Source: Acidiferrobacteraceae bacterium
Lineage (GTDB): Bacteria; Pseudomonadota; Gammaproteobacteria; Arenicellales; UBA868
Assembly: GCA_002713825.1 (NCBI GenBank)
Contig: PAUU01000055.1
Span: forward strand, 10,205-21,428
DNA: 11,224 bases
Direction of reading: 5' to 3'
In this document: positions 1 through 11,134 of the stretch, piece by piece
Numbering within the stretch: the first letter of the stretch is position 1
Layout: each line of letters opens with the position of its first letter
The notes under the pieces: model-generated
What the model was told of the DNA's origin: nothing
Seen by the model: only the letters and a program-made list of their open reading frames with translations
The model's database searches: none
Program-made: the position numbers and the translations under genes

Positions 1-1196
1 TGGCATTTGGCGATCCTGCACCCCAGCGTGTGGTCCGAGGAATCATTTTTGCCAGACTGGTCAACTTTATAGAGGGTCACGCCGCCGTTTCCTCAGAGCT
101 TGCGAGACGGGTTGCTGCAATGCTGGATAGCGCTTCAATGCCTCAGGTGCCGATGCGGGGTATCGGTTGCGCAGGGGAGATCCAGCCTCTCGGACATCTT
201 TTCAACGAGCTCTCCGAAGACCGGACGATGGGAGAGAAAGAAAACCTTTCTCTGGTTAACGGGTCTCCTTGCGCGTGTGCACTGGCGGCGGATGTTGCGC
301 TTTCTTCTCGGCGACGCCTGGATTTGGCCTATCGGTTTTTCGCGCTGTCGAGTGAGGCGCTTCGTGCGCCGCTTGAGGCTTATGATCCAAGTTTGGAGTC
401 ATTGTGGGCCGCTCCCGAGGAACTCTTGGCTCTTAAAGAATTGAGGAGGCTTACTGAAGGGGGGGATACCATGCGACGGGCGTTTCAGGCGCCGGTATCG
501 TGGCGGATTCTCCCGCGCGTGTTCGCCCAGGCTGAGCATGCCGTCAGCCGCCTTGAGGCCGTGGCGTCTTCATCGCTGATCAGCATTACCGACAACCCCG
601 TTTATATATTGCCTGACCAAGAAAATCCGTTGGGCAGGGTGTTCTCGACCGGGGGCTATCATAATGGCCTCGCATACCCCGCGATCGACAGCGCAACCGC
701 CTGCTGGGCAGACCTTGCCACTCTGGGGGATCGCCAAATCACCAAGCTCCTCGACAGCAAAGTCTCGCATCTTCCTGCCCAGTTGCTTGCCCATGAGGAT
801 GGATATATCGGCGTCGCAGGGATGGCTACGGTCGCGTATCAAGAGGAAGCCAGAAGGGCCGCGCAAGCGACTTTATTGCCAGGATCAGAAGGGGGAGGAT
901 TTGGTCAGAATGATGTCGGCGTACCGACCTTCTGGTCGTTTAACCAGCATTCGACCGCAAGTTCGGCGCTGGATGCCGTCCTGGCCTACCTGGGGGTCAC
1001 AGCAAGTCAGGCGCTGTATGTCACAGACAGGCCGGCGCCGCCCAGATTGACGAAAACGCTAGAGGCAATCAGAGCGCTAGTGCCGCCCGTTGTGAAGTCG
1101 AGAGCGCTGGGCCCAGAGGTGGAGCGTCTTGTCGCCCATATCGGCAAGGCAATATTGAGTGACGACCCGGTCGTCAAACTAGGGGCACTGGAATGA
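1..1196 (+). CDS. Aromatic amino acid lyase (HAL/PAL) family homologue lacking the MIO serine; 5' end outside window
   Basis: The reading frame is open from base 3, so the gene enters from the left edge; GTG at 30 is internal. About 397 C-terminal residues are visible. Family landmarks appear in order: the GxxGxxxPLxH segment that carries the MIO tripeptide, a VNGS segment (bases ~255-266, matching the LINGT asparagine), an SWR stretch (matching SLR of HAL), SITDNP (matching SVTDNP) and GGYHNG (matching GNFHG). Canonical enzymes build the electrophilic MIO group from Ala-Ser-Gly to eliminate ammonia from His, Phe or Tyr. Here the aligned tripeptide is Cys-Ala-Gly (bases 168-176), so the modified serine is missing. 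Other active-site positions also differ: the HAL tyrosine of PYSLR is Val, the GNFHG Phe is Tyr, and the QEDH glutamate region reads GQNDV. The fold is clear; activity as an ammonia lyase is doubtful. The stop overlaps the next start (ATGA), suggesting translational coupling. Confidence 0.85.
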   Translation, partial: AFGDPAPQRVVRGIIFARLVNFIEGHAAVSSELARRVAAMLDSASMPQVPMRGIGCAGEIQPLGHLFNELSEDRTMGEKENLSLVNGSPCACALAADVALSSRRRLDLAYRFFALSSEALRAPLEAYDPSLESLWAAPEELLALKELRRLTEGGDTMRRAFQAPVSWRILPRVFAQAEHAVSRLEAVASSSLISITDNPVYILPDQENPLGRVFSTGGYHNGLAYPAIDSATACWADLATLGDRQITKLLDSKVSHLPAQLLAHEDGYIGVAGMATVAYQEEARRAAQATLLPGSEGGGFGQNDVGVPTFWSFNQHSTASSALDAVLAYLGVTASQALYVTDRPAPPRLTKTLEAIRALVPPVVKSRALGPEVERLVAHIGKAILSDDPVVKLGALE

Positions 1197-3040: not shown

Positions 3041-5278
3041 TTAGGCCGAAAGGTCCCTTGGCAGAGAGACTAGGACCTCAACCCCGGAACTTCCAGGCCG
3101 GTTGCGCGCAGATACTGCTCCTTTGTGAAACTCAGCCACCAGTCGCACGATATACAGGCCAAGACCCAGGTGTGTCTTTCGAGCATCCCGGGCGCTTGAC
3201 ACCATTGGGTCGAAAAGGCTGTCGGCGATCTCCGAGGGCAAAGCGGGGCCGTCGTTTGATACCTTGATCTCAAATTCGCTGTCGATAACCCTAAGATTGA
3301 CCACGATAAGACCGTTTGGCGTCCCGAATGCGATTGCGTTGTCAATCAGTTTGTCCAGCAGTTGGGCGACACGATCGGGAACCCCATGCATCCATGCCGT
3401 AGTTGGCACCAAGGTCGCCACGATTCGATGACCAGGATTAGCCGCCTGATAACCGTCCACACAGTTTTGTAACGGCGAGCAGAGGTCGAAGCGCTCCAAC
3501 TGCTCTTGCTCCTGACTGAGTGCTTCTTTTAAGCTGGCGGCTTCTGTGAGACTCGTGATGATTGAGCGAAGTCGTCCGATCCCGTTTCGGGCCCGCTGCA
3601 GATGTTTGTCTTCCGACAGGTCCGCGTGGCTGTACTGGAAATTCTCTAGCGATGAATTCACAACATTGAGCGGGTTGTGAAGCTCGTGGGCCAGAGTATC
3701 GGGGAGTCTCTCAAGGTATCGGGTGTATTGGCCCAGGTCATGCAGCATCGAAGAGATACTGCGGGTCAAGCTGCCCAATTCATCGGAGGAGCGCGCCCCA
3801 GCGCGGATTTGGTCTTTGAGCAGTCGCCCCTCGGAAGAGGTCGCCTGTTCGGTTTCTCTTTGAAGACGTCCGACGCGATAGGTGAGCCGAGTTGAGAAAA
3901 TCAAGATCGCAAGCGCCAGGAAGAGGAAGACTGCCAGGAACAGTATGGTGAAGCGCTGGAGCGTGCTGTATTGAAGGGCGAGAAGCTTGTTCGCACTTTG
4001 TTTCACCAGTACAGCGCCTTCAATTTCGCCTTGGGCCCAAATTGGCGAAGCGGTAACAATAAGTTTCGCCTCTCCATAGCGGCGCCTTTCAGTGCTGGGC
4101 TCGCCTTCTGAGAGAACGCGAGCAAGGATCCGCTGGTCCTCTGCGCTGGACTCATCAGGCATGTCTGCGAGTCCTCGAGTCGGGCTTCTTAGGATCCAGT
4201 CAAAGAACTGGATAATCCGCTCTTGAAGACCCTGAAAGACTGAGACTGCCTCAGCTTGCTCAATCCGGAACGCCTCTCTCGCCGGTGGGATGATAGATCC
4301 GATCTGAGCCCGAACGCGGTAAGACTGATCCCAAACCGTTATGTTGGCCTCCGAGATGTAAAGCGGCTGGATCAACTTGGCCAGTTCCGGCGTCACGAGT
4401 CGAACGCTGCCAAAATCATAGGATCCAGGCTCCGGCTCGGTACTGATGATTTGAGCAACGGAGCGATCGTCTGGATCGTCGACGTCGACAATTTCGAACT
4501 TGAGTCGGGCACCTATTCCGAGCAGATCCCTGGGAATCCGGAGTTTCGCCGCGTAACCACCGGCAAGCGGTTCAATGGATCCTGAGATATCCCGCAGTGC
4601 TTCGCCATCGACGACATCGCGCCAGTTGGCGCGCATGAGATAAACGCTGAATCGGCCCGGGTCTTGAGCGGTCAACAAATAACGAAGAATCTCACCATTG
4701 TTGCGCTGGATCGTCATTCGGATCTGGTCGTTAGTGTCGAGCGAGAGGAGGGCAGGATCACGATAGACCACCACGTCATCGTGGATTTCAAAAAAAGCAA
4801 AAACCGCATCCTGGTTCAGCGCGAGTCCGTGACGCACGATAAGTGAGTCCGGCCGATAGCTTGCCCCGCATTCAAAAAGGCCAGACCCCGAGAAATGGGT
4901 GAGGGGGCCGACAGCAGAGGCCCAGATTTCTGGTGGGGCGTCGATCGCCAAAGGGTCGGTGATCTCAGACAACAAACTCGTTAGGGGACGACCGATTAAC
5001 TCAGGGACCCCTATCTCAGGGTCAAAAAGGTCCGTTCTATTGCCGAGGATGCTGGAGATTCCTTGCGTGGTGAGCTCCAATGCTTGCTCTTGCCCTTCAA
5101 GAAGGAACTTCTCCATTTCTCGGACAGATTCATAGCCCATCCAGGGGATAACGAGGAGCAGACCGACAAGAAGGAGAAGCTTGGTGCGAATCTTGAGCCC
5201 TTTGCGAATCTGGAGATTCCCCGGCCCAGTTCTGCCGCGGGAAGACGATACAGTTCGGGGGCCAACGAGGGAGTTCAC
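3041..5278 (-). CDS. pdsS: Membrane sensor histidine kinase, proteobacterial dedicated sortase system type
   Basis: With the GTG at 5278 as start the protein has 745 residues. TM1 is ~33-48, a ~390-residue extracytoplasmic sensor region follows (~56-440), then TM2 at ~442-462 and a HAMP-like linker. The HisKA H-box is HELHNPLN with phospho-acceptor His531. The ATPase domain has the N-box at DKLIDNA (Asn647), the G1 box at NDGPALP (675-681), an F-box at SLFDPM and the G2 box at GLGLYIV (705-711). All catalytic motifs are present. The N-terminal segment (IRTK, hydrophobic stretch, PWMGYESVREMEKFLLEGQEQ) and the large sensor region recall the kinase of the proteobacterial dedicated sortase system; this is from memory, not a search. 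The GTG overlaps the regulator's stop (GTGA), which is why I prefer it to the longer in-frame GTG at 5296. It most likely phosphorylates the regulator encoded just upstream. No sortase or sortase target is in the window. Confidence 0.85.
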   Translation of the reverse strand: MNSLVGPRTVSSSRGRTGPGNLQIRKGLKIRTKLLLLVGLLLVIPWMGYESVREMEKFLLEGQEQALELTTQGISSILGNRTDLFDPEIGVPELIGRPLTSLLSEITDPLAIDAPPEIWASAVGPLTHFSGSGLFECGASYRPDSLIVRHGLALNQDAVFAFFEIHDDVVVYRDPALLSLDTNDQIRMTIQRNNGEILRYLLTAQDPGRFSVYLMRANWRDVVDGEALRDISGSIEPLAGGYAAKLRIPRDLLGIGARLKFEIVDVDDPDDRSVAQIISTEPEPGSYDFGSVRLVTPELAKLIQPLYISEANITVWDQSYRVRAQIGSIIPPAREAFRIEQAEAVSVFQGLQERIIQFFDWILRSPTRGLADMPDESSAEDQRILARVLSEGEPSTERRRYGEAKLIVTASPIWAQGEIEGAVLVKQSANKLLALQYSTLQRFTILFLAVFLFLALAILIFSTRLTYRVGRLQRETEQATSSEGRLLKDQIRAGARSSDELGSLTRSISSMLHDLGQYTRYLERLPDTLAHELHNPLNVVNSSLENFQYSHADLSEDKHLQRARNGIGRLRSIITSLTEAASLKEALSQEQEQLERFDLCSPLQNCVDGYQAANPGHRIVATLVPTTAWMHGVPDRVAQLLDKLIDNAIAFGTPNGLIVVNLRVIDSEFEIKVSNDGPALPSEIADSLFDPMVSSARDARKTHLGLGLYIVRLVAEFHKGAVSARNRPGSSGVEVLVSLPRDLSA

Positions 5279-5976
5279 TCGTAGTCGGGCTCCCACTTAT
5301 AGCCGGTTCCATGAACGGTCTGGATTCGATCAAAATTTGGATCAAGCGTTCTGAACTTGTTTCGGACGCGGCGAATGTACCCGTTGATCGTGTTGCGCTC
5401 GACCAGGCCCTGGCGCGTCACATCACTTAGCGAATCGTAAGTGCGGACATGTCCAGGGTTTCGGGTGAGGGATTCGATAATCCAGAACTCAGTAAGGGTC
5501 AAATTGACGGGCTCACCTTTCCAGTGAATCAGCATACTCTTCTCGTTGACTTCCAATGAGCCTACTGCCACGTTGCTGTCCGGAGTAGGCGGGGTTTGGA
5601 GTTGTTCGGATATGCGGAGCAGGGCGTGCACACGTGCGACCAAAAACTCGAGGCTGACGGGTTTGGTGATGTAATCCCATGCGGTCATTCTCTGGGATGA
5701 GATCCGGTCGGCATCGCTGTCGCGAGCGGTCAAAAAAATAATTGGGAGGGTGGGGCTCAAATTTCGCAACTGCATACAGAGGTCAAAGCCGCCGTCCATG
5801 TCTTCGCCTAACATAACGTCCAGGAGCGCGAGATCGGGTAATTCGCGGTCGAACCCAGCTTCAGCGCTGGGCCGATCAGGGAAAGCACGGACTTCGTAGC
5901 CGTGAGCCGTCAACACGTCGCTATAGTTTTCACGTTGATCAGTATCGTCTTCAACGATAGCAATAACAGTAGCCAT
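5275..5976 (-). CDS. pdsR: OmpR/PhoB-family response regulator, partner of the adjacent sensor kinase
   Basis: A 233-residue two-domain regulator. The receiver domain (1-~120) has the acidic pair Asp10/Asp11, phospho-acceptor Asp53 (LLDVML), Thr83 (FLTARDSD) and Lys105 (DYITKP). The usual GADDY before the lysine reads TAWDY, a mild deviation. The C-terminal winged helix-turn-helix (~136-230) has the LTLTEFWIIESL helix, the recognition-helix region NTINGYIRRVRNKF (195-208) and the closing VHGTGYKW hairpin, typical of OmpR-type DNA-binding domains. It should dimerise on phosphorylation and bind tandem DNA repeats. The family that fits best in my memory is the response regulator of the proteobacterial dedicated sortase system, hence the symbol, which is less certain than the general call. 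It is first in a two-gene operon with the kinase (4-base overlap). A sigma-70-like promoter and an 11-bp-spaced direct repeat upstream suggest autoregulation. Confidence 0.88.
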   Translation of the reverse strand: MATVIAIVEDDTDQRENYSDVLTAHGYEVRAFPDRPSAEAGFDRELPDLALLDVMLGEDMDGGFDLCMQLRNLSPTLPIIFLTARDSDADRISSQRMTAWDYITKPVSLEFLVARVHALLRISEQLQTPPTPDSNVAVGSLEVNEKSMLIHWKGEPVNLTLTEFWIIESLTRNPGHVRTYDSLSDVTRQGLVERNTINGYIRRVRNKFRTLDPNFDRIQTVHGTGYKWEPDYE

Positions 5977-6501: not shown

Positions 6502-7023
6502 TTAGTTTCGGAGCGATCCCGCTTCCGGGGTGTCTCTTCCCGGCCTTACCGGACGGGTGGTCGCCGGGCGAAGGCGAGGTGTCGTGGCCCTGTCCCCAAC
6601 GGTCGAATTTTCGGTATCCATATCGACGGAACCTTTAAAGCTGCAGCCATCCTCCAAGACAACACGAGGCGCGCGGATATCGCCTTTGACCTTGCCTGAG
6701 GGGCTGATAATCACCTGTTCGCTGCCGTAAAGCTCGCCCTTTACTTGCCCGTCGACACGAATGATGCGGGCGTTGATGTTGGCGGTTACTCGGCCGTTCT
6801 CGCTAACAACCAGGTTGTTGTCTTTGAAGTTGACCGTTCCTTCAATTGAACCATCTACGACGAGGTCTTCCTCTCCTGTGACGTCCCCATGAATCACGAT
6901 GGAGGGCCCGATTGTCGCGGGTTTACGGGAACCTGTCTTCGGCGAAGAGCTGGCCTTAGCGGTTGTGGAGGTTGGGGCTTCATCAGCTCCAGCACTGGCT
7001 GCGTCAATTTCCTTTTGTGACAT
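6502..7023 (-). CDS. Bactofilin (polymer-forming cytoskeletal protein)
   Basis: A 173-residue protein with the standard bactofilin plan. A polar, Ala/Ser/Thr/Pro-rich head (1-~38) is followed by a central repetitive beta-helix domain (~40-136), and then an Arg/Pro-rich tail (~147-173). The core shows the family's rungs: SIVIHGDVTGEEDLVVDG, SIEGTVNFKDNNLVV, GRVTANINARIIRVDG, QVKGELYGSEQVIISPSG, KVKGDIRAPRVVLEDG and CSFKGSVDM. Bactofilins assemble into nucleotide-independent filaments, often at the inner membrane, and take part in shape, stalk formation, peptidoglycan patterning or polar localisation; the specific role here is unknown. The ATG at 7023 has a GAGGAAC ribosome binding site (7035-7041). 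No partner such as an M23 peptidase is encoded next to it, although peptidases often neighbour bactofilins. It is monocistronic by appearance, with its own terminator. Confidence 0.93.
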   Translation of the reverse strand: MSQKEIDAASAGADEAPTSTTAKASSSPKTGSRKPATIGPSIVIHGDVTGEEDLVVDGSIEGTVNFKDNNLVVSENGRVTANINARIIRVDGQVKGELYGSEQVIISPSGKVKGDIRAPRVVLEDGCSFKGSVDMDTENSTVGDRATTPRLRPATTRPVRPGRDTPEAGSLRN

Positions 7024-7176: not shown

Positions 7177-7204
7177 ACTTAACATAATATACATTATGCG
7201 TAAC
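7177..7204 (-). other. dif: dif site: XerC/XerD chromosome dimer resolution site
   Basis: Read on the minus strand the 28 bases are an 11-base XerC arm GTTACGCATAA, a 6-base centre TGTATA and an 11-base XerD arm TTATGTTAAGT. By my count against the E. coli dif sequence as I remember it, 25 of 28 positions match, including the whole central region and the inner palindromic halves of both arms. XerCD recombinase acts here under FtsK control to resolve chromosome dimers, so the site marks the replication terminus region. It lies in the 218-base gap between bactofilin (upstream side) and the tatD stop. The tatD-fabF genes run towards dif, as expected for leading-strand genes near the terminus. 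A dif copy at the edge of an Xer-integrated mobile element is the alternative. Confidence 0.85.
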
Positions 7205-7241: not shown

Positions 7242-8018
7242 CTATCTATTGGCGCAGCTGAAGAGACGAAAAAAGTTCCTTGTCGTGAGCGCTGCCAGTT
7301 CTGCAAACTCTAGTCCACGCAGCTCAGCCAGGTACTCTGCCGTGTGCTTTACGAAGGCTGGTTCATTACGCTTCCCCCTGAACGGCACGGGCGCGAGGTA
7401 CGGTGCATCCGTCTCTACCAGCATCCTGTCGAGCGGAACTTTGCGAGCCACTTCGCGAAGCTCCTCCGCATTTTTAAACGTCACGATCCCCGAAAAAGAG
7501 ATATAGAAACCAAGATCCAAAGCGCCCTTTGCTGTCGGCCAATCCTCCGCGAAACAGTGCATGACGCCGCCAGCTTGAGACGCCTGCTCATTTTGCATGA
7601 GCTCCAGAGTCTCTCTCGCCGCATGGCGTGTATGGATGATAAGCGGCTTTTCGGTCTGCCGAGCCGCTCGAATATGCCGAGAGAATCGCTCTTTTTGCTT
7701 GCGCGCGTCACAGTCGTCCCGATAGAAGTCGAGGCCAGTCTCGCCGATCGCCACGACCTTGGGATCCGAGGCGAGTGTCTCAAGCTGCTCCTGTAAGGGT
7801 TCCTCGTTCGGCTCCAGTTGAGTGTTAGGGTGAACGCCGACGCTTGCTGAGATGTGTTCGGAGCGATTCGCAACTGCAAGAACCCGGTGAAAATCCGCAA
7901 GATTTACACAAACGCAAAGCAGATGACCAACGTCAGCCGAAAATGCGCGTTCAAGCACCCCTGAGAGGTCTTCACCAAAATCCGGGAAATCGACATGACA
8001 ATGAGAGTCGACCAGCAT
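7242..8018 (-). CDS. tatD: TatD family metal-dependent hydrolase / DNase
   Basis: A 258-residue TIM-barrel amidohydrolase-type protein from ATG 8018. That start places the metal-binding HxH motif (DSHCH, His6 and His8) at the N-terminus as in the family. It is also preceded by AAAGGAAC at 8023-8030; a longer ORF from 8093 would overlap pilZ. Further metal and catalytic residues are Glu93 (AIGETGLDFY), His129 (IIHTRH), His154 (MHCF) and Asp204 (ETDAPYLAP), all present. The PFRGKRNEP segment is typical. TatD proteins are metal-dependent 3'-5' exonucleases/endonucleases implicated in DNA repair and turnover. The position at the end of the mltG-tmk-holB-pilZ cluster corresponds to the ycfH/PA2959 type of TatD paralogue rather than the one in the tat operon. 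It ends 38 bases before the dif site. Confidence 0.93.
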   Translation of the reverse strand: MLVDSHCHVDFPDFGEDLSGVLERAFSADVGHLLCVCVNLADFHRVLAVANRSEHISASVGVHPNTQLEPNEEPLQEQLETLASDPKVVAIGETGLDFYRDDCDARKQKERFSRHIRAARQTEKPLIIHTRHAARETLELMQNEQASQAGGVMHCFAEDWPTAKGALDLGFYISFSGIVTFKNAEELREVARKVPLDRMLVETDAPYLAPVPFRGKRNEPAFVKHTAEYLAELRGLEFAELAALTTRNFFRLFSCANR

Positions 8019-8049: not shown

Positions 8050-8409
8050 TCAAAGTGTGTGGGTTGCAGCCGATTGTTGAGTTGCCTCAACAACCAACTC
8101 TTCGATCCGATCCTTCAATTTCGCCCCGTCCTGACCCTTAAATTGAACGCCAACGCCCTTGGTCCGGCTGCTTTGGGCCCCTGCAGGCGTCATCCAGACA
8201 ACGGTCGCGGCAAGCGCATACTGCTCCTCCCCTAGGAGCTTAACAACGAGAAATACTTCATCACCCATCCCGTATTCGTTGGGAGTCGGAACGAATAGCC
8301 CAGCATTCCTTAAGAACGGCATAAAAGCGGCCCGTAGGGTACGCAAATCGTTGATAGACACCGACAGGACACGAGGCCGTGCTTTTTTTTGAGAGCTTGG
8401 TTCGGACAT
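8050..8409 (-). CDS. pilZ: Type IV pilus assembly protein PilZ
   Basis: A 119-residue single-domain PilZ protein. The segments AAFMPFLRNAGLFVPT (27-42), YGMGDEVFLVVKLL and VVWMTPAGAQ (70-79), KGVGVQF and the C-terminal THTL closely resemble Pseudomonas aeruginosa PilZ as I remember it. It lacks the RxxxR and (D/N)xSxxG c-di-GMP-binding motifs of other PilZ-domain proteins, as the true PilZ of type IV pili does. PilZ is needed for pilus biogenesis and acts through partners such as FimX and the PilB ATPase rather than by binding c-di-GMP itself. It sits between holB and tatD, the standard gammaproteobacterial location, 24 bases after holB. The ribosome binding site is weak, so translation may depend on upstream genes of the operon. 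Confidence 0.95.
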   Translation of the reverse strand: MSEPSSQKKARPRVLSVSINDLRTLRAAFMPFLRNAGLFVPTPNEYGMGDEVFLVVKLLGEEQYALAATVVWMTPAGAQSSRTKGVGVQFKGQDGAKLKDRIEELVVEATQQSAATHTL

Positions 8410-8433: not shown

Positions 8434-9477
8434 TCAGATTCGAGCGTGCTCTTCGCACACCCACGCGCAAATATCCTCGAGAGCAAGCTGTTCGTCAACT
8501 GCAGAGCCCACGGTCTCCCTCGCTGAACCGAGTCTTTGAAACGCGCGAATGGAAAAGCCGAGGTCGCGGAAAAGGCCCCCTGCCGAGGCTTTAGCCCCTT
8601 TTCGAACAGACTCGCGAACGGTTTGCAGAGAGAGATTCTGTAATATGTGTAGAGCTCGGTCGACCCCAACTTCTCCACAGAGTCTGGCCAGTGTCAGGCT
8701 ATCGGGGGTTTTATGGTTTTTCCCCATACAGTAGGCTACAAGAGTGGTCATGGCTGCCACGCTCCCGTTCGAAAGGAGTTCATCTATCGTGATCGGCCCG
8801 AGGCCAGAAACCAGCAAAGTTGAGAGATCCTCACTTTCTGGTTCGTGTCGCGCACGAAGCCAGGCTAAAGCATCATTCACGTTGGGCGCGGGACATTCAA
8901 TTCGAATGCAGCGGCTGTGAATGGTTGAGGGCAGTCGATAGGGGAAGCTCGTCACTAAAATGAAGTGGGTTTCCCCTGCTGGCTCCTCGAGCACTTTCAG
9001 CATAGCGTTCGCGGCATTGCGATTCAGCGCATCTGCTGCCAAGACCAACGCGACTTTCCTCCCCCCCAGGCGACTCGTTTCCAATAGCGACTCGGACAGC
9101 AGCCGAGCGCCGTCTACACTGATAAAGTTGCTTCGTTTGCGTTTCTGACTTGATTGCTCTGCATCAAGGTATCGTTGCGCGTGGCTAAGTAAGGCGGGAT
9201 GGCAGTCTTCGGCCAGCACTTCCGGCATTAACAGGTGAAGGTCAGGATGCACGCTGTTGGAGAGCAGGTGGCACGATTGGCACGAACCGCAGGCACGGCC
9301 CTGGCCCGGCTGCTTGCAAAGCATCTGTGTAGCCAGGTCGAGACCCAGGAGATACTTGCCGATCGCCGGTGGCCCGGAAACCAACAGGCCGTGATGCCTG
9401 TGATCACTGCCCAGCAGTTTTTCTCTGGTAGCGACAAGCCAGGGAAGGTCCGCTGAGTCAATCAATCGAAACCCCAA
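8434..9477 (-). CDS. holB: DNA polymerase III subunit delta' (clamp loader)
   Basis: A 347-residue AAA+ clamp-loader subunit, close to the usual ~330. It has a modified Walker A at 35-42 (GPPAIGKY: Tyr replaces the usual Ser/Thr, as expected for a subunit that does not hydrolyse ATP). A four-cysteine zinc module follows (C54, C63, C66, C69), then the AANAMLKVLEEP helix (155-166), sensor-1 region ILVTSFPYRLPSTIHSR and the SRC motif (188-190). Delta' works with delta, tau and gamma to open and load the beta clamp during replication. The only start that keeps the full N-terminus (GFRLIDSADLPWL) is a TTG at 9477, overlapping the end of tmk by 20 bases; an in-frame TTG at 9465 is the alternative. 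Translation is probably coupled to tmk. tmk-holB-pilZ-tatD is the conserved gammaproteobacterial order. Confidence 0.93.
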   Translation of the reverse strand: MGFRLIDSADLPWLVATREKLLGSDHRHHGLLVSGPPAIGKYLLGLDLATQMLCKQPGQGRACGSCQSCHLLSNSVHPDLHLLMPEVLAEDCHPALLSHAQRYLDAEQSSQKRKRSNFISVDGARLLSESLLETSRLGGRKVALVLAADALNRNAANAMLKVLEEPAGETHFILVTSFPYRLPSTIHSRCIRIECPAPNVNDALAWLRARHEPESEDLSTLLVSGLGPITIDELLSNGSVAAMTTLVAYCMGKNHKTPDSLTLARLCGEVGVDRALHILQNLSLQTVRESVRKGAKASAGGLFRDLGFSIRAFQRLGSARETVGSAVDEQLALEDICAWVCEEHARI

Positions 9478-10090
9478 ATCGCTCGTTCACCAGCAACTTT
9501 ATATTGCTATTGAGCTCGTCAACCGCCTGGCTGGCGTCGAGGTTGACTACCCGTCCTGCATCTATCTTAGCGATATGGTGATAGGCGGCCCGTACCCGTT
9601 CCTTAAATGCAGACTCCTCAGACTCGAAACGGTCGTGGCTGGCACCGCGTCCCCCGGTTCGTCGAATGCCGGCATTAATCCCGAGGTCTAGCAGTATGGT
9701 CAGGTCCGGCTTGAGACCTCCAGTCGCGATTTCCTCTAGTGAGGCGATGAGCGAATGCGGCAGGCCTCGCCCCCCGCCCTGGTAGGCGTAACTGGCGTCT
9801 GTGTAGCGGTCGCAAAGGACCCAACGGCCTGACGCTAGCGCTGGCTCAATAACTTCCTTGGTATGGTGGGATCGAGCGGCAAACATCAGCAACACCTCTG
9901 TTTCAGCATCTATAGAACTCGCATGATGCAACACCCAGTTTCTGATCTCTTCTGCGAGTTTCGTACCACCAGGCTCGCGGGTAACCAAAGGTTTTTGACC
10001 GGCAGTGGTTAGGGCCTGTGCAAGGAGTTCGATCTGAGTGGTCTTTCCGGCGCCATCTCCTCCTTCGAAGGTGATAAACCGACCTCTCAT
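9458..10090 (-). CDS. tmk: Thymidylate kinase (dTMP kinase)
   Basis: A 210-residue nucleotide kinase of typical length. The P-loop is at residues 10-17 (GGDGAGKT), the TREPGGT dTMP-site segment at 36-42, and the DRY motif with YTDASYAYQGGGRG at 93-108. The LID region (GGRGASHDRFE, ~145-155) is basic, as in the E. coli-type enzyme. It phosphorylates dTMP to dTDP in the cytoplasm and is essential for dTTP supply. It starts 18 bases after the mltG stop and overlaps holB, so it lies inside a tightly packed operon. ATG at 10090 gives the normal short N-terminus (MRGRFITFEG); no strong Shine-Dalgarno sequence is visible before it. Confidence 0.96.
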   Translation of the reverse strand: MRGRFITFEGGDGAGKTTQIELLAQALTTAGQKPLVTREPGGTKLAEEIRNWVLHHASSIDAETEVLLMFAARSHHTKEVIEPALASGRWVLCDRYTDASYAYQGGGRGLPHSLIASLEEIATGGLKPDLTILLDLGINAGIRRTGGRGASHDRFESEESAFKERVRAAYHHIAKIDAGRVVNLDASQAVDELNSNIKLLVNERFGVSID

Positions 10091-10108: not shown

Positions 10109-11134
10109 TCACCGACGATATTTCTTGACGGCACGGTTGTGCTCCTTCAGTGTTCTAGAAAACTCATGTGAACCGTCCCCCTTTGCCATGAAATACAGAT
10201 CCTCGGTCTCTAAGGGGTTAACTGCCGCGAGCAGCGCTGCCCGCCCGGGCAGAGAGATGGGGCCAGGCGGCAAGCCATTGCGAGTGTAGGTATTGTACGG
10301 TGTATCCTTCTTAAGATGACTCCTCTTTAGCGGCCCCTTGAAGTTCGACCCTAAACCGAATATCACCGTGGGGTCAGTCTGGAGTCGCATTTTCAAACGA
10401 AGCCGGTTGTGGAAAACGCCGCTGATTCGGGGCATCTCAGATTCAAGCATCGCTTCTTTTTGGATAATCGATGCAAGAATGAGTGCTTCGTAGGGATCGT
10501 TCAAGAGCAGGTCAGCAGCGCGCGCGTCCCAAGCGCTGGTGAGCTCCTCCTGCATTTTCGTTGCCGCACGGCCAAGAACGTTAAGGGCGCTGTCCCCTCG
10601 CAGAAAGAAATACGTCGACGGGAAGAATGCTCCTTCAACACTGGGCGCGTTCAAGGACAGATGATCTCCCAGGACGGGATCTGAGAAGTCGGCAAGAGTG
10701 TTGATCAGCATCTTTTCCTGTCCGAGCCGATCCCTGAGTTGGGAAAATCTCAAACCCTCGACGATAGTCAGTTTTCGCTGATGAACATCCCCCCTGCTGA
10801 CCTTCCCCAGGATCTGTGCAGGGTTGGTTTTTTCAGGGATAAGGTATTCCCCTGTCTTGAATGTTCCAGAGGTTCCGCTGAGAACTGCCCAAGCAAGTAC
10901 AGGCCAGCGGGATCCGGCGAATCCTTCTGAAACCAGTTGGGTTGCTAAAGAGTGGGCTCCGGTGCCGGGAGTGACGACCAGAAACTGCTCAGCCTGGTTT
11001 ATCGGCGTACGAATCGTCTGATAAAGAAAGATCAGCGAGACGCCAACACAACTTAGTGCGACTGCTGCGAAAAGACTGGCAAAACACCACAGGTACCATC
11101 GTCGTCTATGACCCTTAATCTTCACGAGCGGCAT
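10109..11134 (-). CDS. mltG: Endolytic peptidoglycan transglycosylase MltG (YceG-like)
   Basis: A 341-residue protein of the usual ~340 length. A basic N-terminus is followed by a single membrane anchor (~13-38), leaving the rest in the periplasm. A small LysM-like region (~45-110) precedes the YceG catalytic domain. The catalytic glutamate is Glu227 in ASIIQKEAML, followed by the signature segments VFHNRLRLKMRLQTDPTVIFG (240-260), YNTYTRNGLPPGPISLPG (280-297) and AAVNP...LYFMAKGDGSHEF. The enzyme cleaves nascent glycan strands and is thought to terminate their elongation. It begins 27 bases after the fabF stop, with a poor ribosome binding site. In many gammaproteobacteria pabC lies between the two genes; here there is no room for it. 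Confidence 0.95.
   Translation of the reverse strand: MPLVKIKGHRRRWYLWCFASLFAAVALSCVGVSLIFLYQTIRTPINQAEQFLVVTPGTGAHSLATQLVSEGFAGSRWPVLAWAVLSGTSGTFKTGEYLIPEKTNPAQILGKVSRGDVHQRKLTIVEGLRFSQLRDRLGQEKMLINTLADFSDPVLGDHLSLNAPSVEGAFFPSTYFFLRGDSALNVLGRAATKMQEELTSAWDARAADLLLNDPYEALILASIIQKEAMLESEMPRISGVFHNRLRLKMRLQTDPTVIFGLGSNFKGPLKRSHLKKDTPYNTYTRNGLPPGPISLPGRAALLAAVNPLETEDLYFMAKGDGSHEFSRTLKEHNRAVKKYRR

Follow-up and report, generated by a model that had tools for sequence, protein, structure and literature searches.

A single dif site at the 3′ end of an mltG-tmk-holB-pilZ-tatD operon and the recurrence of this arrangement in Gammaproteobacteria

The window analysed here, a stretch of 11,224 nucleotides from an Acidiferrobacteraceae bacterium (Gammaproteobacteria; Arenicellales; UBA868), covers positions 10205-21428 of contig C58 (PAUU01000055.1) in an assembly (GCA_002713825.1, here G000) of 1.79 Mb in 63 contigs that is 73.5% complete. 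On its minus strand, a run of genes from mltG to tatD leads up to a short site resembling the dif of E. coli, and a bactofilin gene, a response regulator gene and a sensor kinase gene follow on the other side. The features discussed below are the following:

10109..11134, minus strand, mltG (YceG family); PF02618 with 268.7 bits, above the cut-off
9458..10090, minus strand, tmk, dTMP kinase; TIGR00041 with 180.5 bits, above the cut-off
8434..9477, minus strand, holB, DNA polymerase III delta'; NF004310 with 175 bits and TIGR00678 with 157.5 bits, both below their cut-offs, with its place in the operon
8050..8409, minus strand, PilZ-domain protein; PF07238 with 34.2 bits, above the cut-off
7242..8018, minus strand, tatD-family hydrolase; TIGR00010 with 297.8 bits, above the cut-off; ends 37 bp before dif
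7177..7204, minus strand, predicted dif site, 5'-GTTACGCATAATGTATATTATGTTAAGT; 25/28 against E. coli dif, single copy in the assembly, present in 24/33 family genomes
7194..7204, minus strand, putative XerC-binding arm GTTACGCATAA, assigned by analogy with E. coli dif
7188..7193, minus strand, central hexamer TGTATA, the same as in E. coli
7177..7187, minus strand, putative XerD-binding arm TTATGTTAAGT, assigned like the XerC arm from its E. coli counterpart
6502..7023, minus strand, bactofilin, on the opposite flank of dif; PF04519 with 85.4 bits, above the cut-off
5275..5976, minus strand, response regulator; nearest model TIGR03787 (sortase-system regulator), below the cut-off
3041..5296, minus strand, sensor kinase; nearest model TIGR03785, below the cut-off
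632..639, plus strand, the sole GGGNAGGG (KOPS-like) octamer in the window, aimed at dif; from a motif scan

For the kinase/regulator pair (3041-5976, minus strand), the nearest models are both named for a 'proteobacterial dedicated sortase system', and both matches stay below the cut-offs. Positions 1193-2428 of the plus strand encode a polysaccharide-lyase domain protein with a long acidic C-terminal part, which is less conserved in the family than the adjacent phosphoribosyltransferase. A search for RNA or tRNA features within the window found none.

Like dif in E. coli, the dif-like site is intergenic, with the stop codon of tatD (from 7242) on one side and the start of the bactofilin gene (7023) on the other. 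Against a reference 28-mer that matches E. coli K-12 exactly, the coordinates, the minus strand and the 25 of 28 identical bases given in the initial annotation were reproduced. Inner arms and central TGTATA are identical to those of E. coli dif, in agreement with the Xer arms and the complete hexamer that had been annotated, and the mismatches are confined to positions 2, 4 and 27, that is to the outer arm ends. In its accessible part, the study of Carnoy and Roten (2009; PMC2731167) describes within-species variation of dif at positions 1-4 and 27-28 of its proteobacterial set, where the differences of the present site from E. coli also fall. The 28 bp appear to follow the XerC/XerD layout of an 11-bp XerC arm, a 6-bp centre and an 11-bp XerD arm. 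This classical XerC/XerD type is unlike the XerL dif of Legionella, which serves a single recombinase, has arms of perfect dyad symmetry that do not resemble Xer motifs and lies in a varying neighbourhood; the att site of LME-1 and the XerL dif are likewise intergenic, of ∼29 bp and near the GC-skew maximum (accessible part of PMC9765430). As such, the dif site of the window is of the textbook kind. It is the single match to E. coli dif at ≤3 mismatches within the window, no match this good was seen in dinucleotide shuffles of the window (0/200), and 2.9e-8 matches are expected under uniform bases. In an alignment of seven hand-picked genomes the site is almost invariant amid a spacer of 56% mean column identity, and the inner part of the XerC arm is constant or almost so.

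Since the site lies upstream of the bactofilin gene and contains TATAAT-like words, this AT-rich palindrome could also be mainly the promoter or operator of that gene. However, a promoter-like pair on the bactofilin strand sits elsewhere, at 7138-7110 upstream of the gene (TTGACC-17-GACAAT, minus strand), and is retained in the closest relatives in the seven-genome alignment. Furthermore, the site also occurs in other families in loci whose fetched ∼10 kb lack a bactofilin match. On these two grounds a promoter/operator was rejected as the main role, and we consider it extremely improbable.

A comparison of the flanks in related genomes, as the initial annotation had suggested, revealed a single dif adjoined by tatD and/or bactofilin in all 24 of the 33 family genomes in which the site was found. 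Both flanks were matched in 22 of the 24, while the contigs of the other two (G019, G002) stop at dif and leave one flank visible. From the centre of dif to the ends of the protein matches, the distances in the family are ∼50-150 bp for tatD and ∼125-260 bp for bactofilin, on opposite sides. Among the nine family genomes without a dif match, G001 and G004 carry a dif-like sequence (4 or 5 mismatches) at the corresponding position, the contigs of G025 and G027 stop 28-56 b past the tatD match and before a complete dif, and the remaining five are also without a tatD match.

The site might alternatively be the attachment site of an integrated element (IMEX, filamentous phage or genomic island) instead of the chromosomal dif, as Xer-exploiting elements use dif. 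LME-1 of Legionella is an example (accessible part of PMC9765430). In favour of this explanation, more than one dif-like site is present in 3 of the 81 order genomes with a site (out of 109; single in 78) and in 11 of the 260 class genomes with a site (out of 370). Against it, the 73.5%-complete G000 contains one match at ≤3 mismatches and no second, better dif elsewhere, and each of the 24 family genomes has its one copy closely flanked by tatD and/or bactofilin. Two dif copies around foreign DNA, the arrangement that marks an IMEX, were found neither in G000 nor in the loci of the 24 relatives, and a search of IMG/VR contigs for exact matches to the 27-mer gave none. We therefore give an element origin hardly any weight. 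The earlier expectation that Xer-dependent mobile elements would be likely to insert here was not borne out either, the site being single and uninterrupted in 24 of the 33 family genomes.

A chromosomal dif is expected by the initial annotation to mark the replication terminus beside holB/tmk, and this is supported by the single site in the 73.5%-complete assembly together with the nearby peak of the contig skew. On C58 (46,956 b) the GC skew is +0.050 left of dif and -0.012 right of it, and the cumulative skew reaches its maximum 98 b from dif, at the scale of the contig and not of the whole genome. All 11 family genomes that have ≥7 kb on either side of dif (G000 included) show a left skew exceeding the right skew; in these genomes the skew peak lies <1 kb from dif in five and 3-19 kb away in six. 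The place of dif was likewise compared with the GC-skew maximum in the set of Carnoy and Roten (accessible part of PMC2731167).

The polarity of the KOPS motif GGGNAGGG, proposed earlier as a further check, was determined in the pooled fetched flanks of the 24 family genomes. The motif converges on dif: 127 copies point toward it and 8 in the other direction, whereas the reversed control motif gave 64:20 (Fisher P 2.5e-4, with genomes treated as independent though they are related). On C58 alone the control motif is nearly as polarised (5:1) as KOPS (8:1), and the KOPS evidence therefore counts only when pooled. The window was initially described as free of FtsK-orienting motifs, which has to be corrected for the one GGGNAGGG at 632-639 (plus strand); this lone octamer is uninformative by itself, because the mean chance number in the window is 1.48. 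Genome-wide counts of GGGNAGGG (156 and 100; control 123 and 85) are uninformative as well, because the contigs are unoriented. Other motifs gave pooled toward:away ratios of 50:6 (GGGCAGGG) and 257:59 (GNGNAGGG), and on C58 ratios of 3:1 (GGGCAGGG) and 7:3 (AGGGCAG), while no chi octamer was found on this contig.

G000 encodes XerD (372.6 bits) and an FtsK gamma domain (87.2 bits), both above the cut-offs. XerC was not found in the 73.5%-complete assembly and is regarded as absent from it, because the best match to the XerC model is the XerD gene itself; xerC is presumably encoded in the portion that the assembly lacks, and XerC is above the cut-off in 15 of 20 genus genomes. A short, weak tyrosine-recombinase match with an in-frame stop is present at C6:5193-5390 of G000 (L095). 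XerCD binding, strand exchange and their timing at dif are presumed to follow the E. coli system. Homologous recombination at the end of replication of a circular chromosome may leave a dimer. FtsK would load at KOPS and, steered by the polarity of the motif, would bring the two dif copies together at the septum, where its gamma domain would activate XerD and XerC/XerD would then resolve the dimer. The sequence, the single copy, the composition switch, the pooled KOPS convergence, XerD and the FtsK gamma domain, and XerC in most genus mates support a dif role, and the 28-mer is almost certainly the chromosomal dif of this bacterium.

Outside the family, the flanks of all 57 order genomes with a site were read over the length fetched (13 b to 10 kb), and 12 of them have tatD upstream of dif and on its strand. 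For six further order genomes the same position of tatD is deduced from the corresponding named records. Bactofilin and/or RR/HK genes are located downstream of dif on the same strand in loci of the order families f3, f6, f8 and f12, and the order genome G108 (L207) shows the arrangement mltG-tmk-holB-tatD-dif-RR-HK. Two or three dif-like sites were seen in the order genomes G064, G094 and G103. Starting from tatD, a dif (≤4 mismatches) was detected in 21 of the best 80 of 270 loci of tatD relatives, always downstream of tatD and on its strand (21/21), and one letter shuffle per locus gave 0 sites for the 80 loci. These 21 loci include family members, Arenicella, an Acidiferrobacteraceae MAG and a Muproteobacteria MAG.

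Linkage across the class was followed in a hand-chosen set of 80 genomes with a site. TatD was called at E ≤1e-45 in 65 of them, with no match at this threshold in 15, and it shares a contig with dif in 40 of the 65 and is on another contig in 25. The distance between dif and tatD is ≤10 kb in 21 of the 65 genomes (14/47 families), ≤50 kb in 28 and ≤100 kb in 31 (21 families); these counts are not independent, because the genomes share ancestry. In all 31 genomes with dif within 100 kb, the site is downstream of tatD, and in 30 of them it is on the tatD strand (exception G378). In the nine other same-contig genomes tatD is 124-933 kb off, with dif downstream in six and on the same strand in six. 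The twelve single-contig genomes have dif-tatD distances of 2.7, 4.7, 6.0, 10.8, 35.5, 78.7, 93.8, 133, 312, 485, 512 and 933 kb. For xerD, the single control gene, dif was within 10 kb in 1 of 78 genomes and within 100 kb in 3, and on another contig in 59; the P values of this control treat genomes as independent.

Among the 21 class loci with dif within 10 kb of tatD, 20 were inspected (G186 left out), which were thus selected for linkage. In 19 of the 20, mltG, tmk, holB and tatD are found in this order upstream of dif and on its strand, with pilZ in 18 of the 19, and the remaining locus (G161) shows holB, pilZ and tatD before the fetched stretch ends. KOPS point toward dif 90 times and away 15 times in the 20 loci, and in 17 the left side has the higher GC skew, with the reverse in G458, G324 and G292. 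For the flank of dif opposite to tatD, no conservation was found across the class; a response regulator match (E ≤1e-60) was obtained in 13 of the 80 genomes, near dif only in G392 (∼4.7 kb).

Some class genomes carry more than one dif-like site. G160 has two, with 2 and 3 mismatches, at C1:158083 (plus strand) and C1:187407 (minus strand) (loci L211 and L212), which are 29 kb apart in opposite orientation, with mltG, tmk, holB and pilZ upstream of the first. Two or three such sites are also present in G155, G195, G268, G321, G357, G401, G417, G437, G440 and G449. Integrated elements, second replicons, contamination or chance matches may account for genomes with multiple sites.

E. coli was rejected as a keeper of the linkage. 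In K-12, dif and ycfH, the tatD-family gene that follows holB, are separated by 433 kb and lie on different strands, as compared to 37 bp between dif and tatD in the window; the neighbours of the K-12 dif also differ, being the yneL pseudogene and hipA, and the E. coli holB/tmk cluster includes fabD, fabG, acpP and fabF in addition. In the accessible part of their study, Carnoy and Roten interpreted the variable flanks of dif as different genetic environments, with about a quarter of the dif sites beside mobility genes (PMC2731167). In contrast to this view, the gene neighbourhood described here is common to genomes of many families.

We interpret the position of dif after mltG-tmk-holB-pilZ-tatD as an ancestral terminus neighbourhood that has been retained. 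That dif follows an operon codirectional with replication is expected if the operon is located near the terminus. What is not expected is that the operon is so often near the terminus and that dif keeps a constant orientation relative to it. This linkage is most simply explained by common ancestry followed by repeated loss, and dif has probably, though with considerable room for doubt, been tied to the 3′ end of the operon, with side and orientation fixed, since the ancestor of a large part of Gammaproteobacteria. The neighbourhood may have persisted because selection acts against rearrangements close to dif that invert polarised motifs. This idea leans on published inversion data and is consistent with the dearth of inversions near the terminus: in the accessible part of that study, within-arm inversions become scarce toward the terminus, and inversions that include the terminus were left out (PMC5993296).

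That order, side and orientation are conserved across genomes from many families could also reflect a functional coupling of dif and tatD, through the replication timing of tmk/holB, transcription toward dif or a TatD nuclease acting at the terminus. However, the adjacency is explained equally well if gene order near the terminus was retained passively, and many genomes, that of E. coli among them, do without it, so that coupling seems unlikely to us. No report of a linkage between dif and tatD/holB/tmk was found by title or abstract start in the open-licence PMC literature, and one may be in print elsewhere; in word searches of main texts, PMC2731167 was negative for holB, tmk and TatD, and PMC3025954 for neighbourhood, synteny, flank and tatD.

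The useful part of these observations is the neighbourhood rather than the site. If the ancestral linkage is true, the operon would indicate where replication terminated in the ancestor of the class, and one of the chromosome's oldest gene-to-site linkages would lie in a region that is often regarded as fluid. A conserved linkage would help to locate the terminus in fragmented genomes, would serve as a landmark for reconstructing ancestral replichores and would provide a test case for the proposal that gene order around dif is frozen by polarised motifs. With such a linkage, the essential genes tmk and holB would also have remained close to the point replicated last in many lineages.
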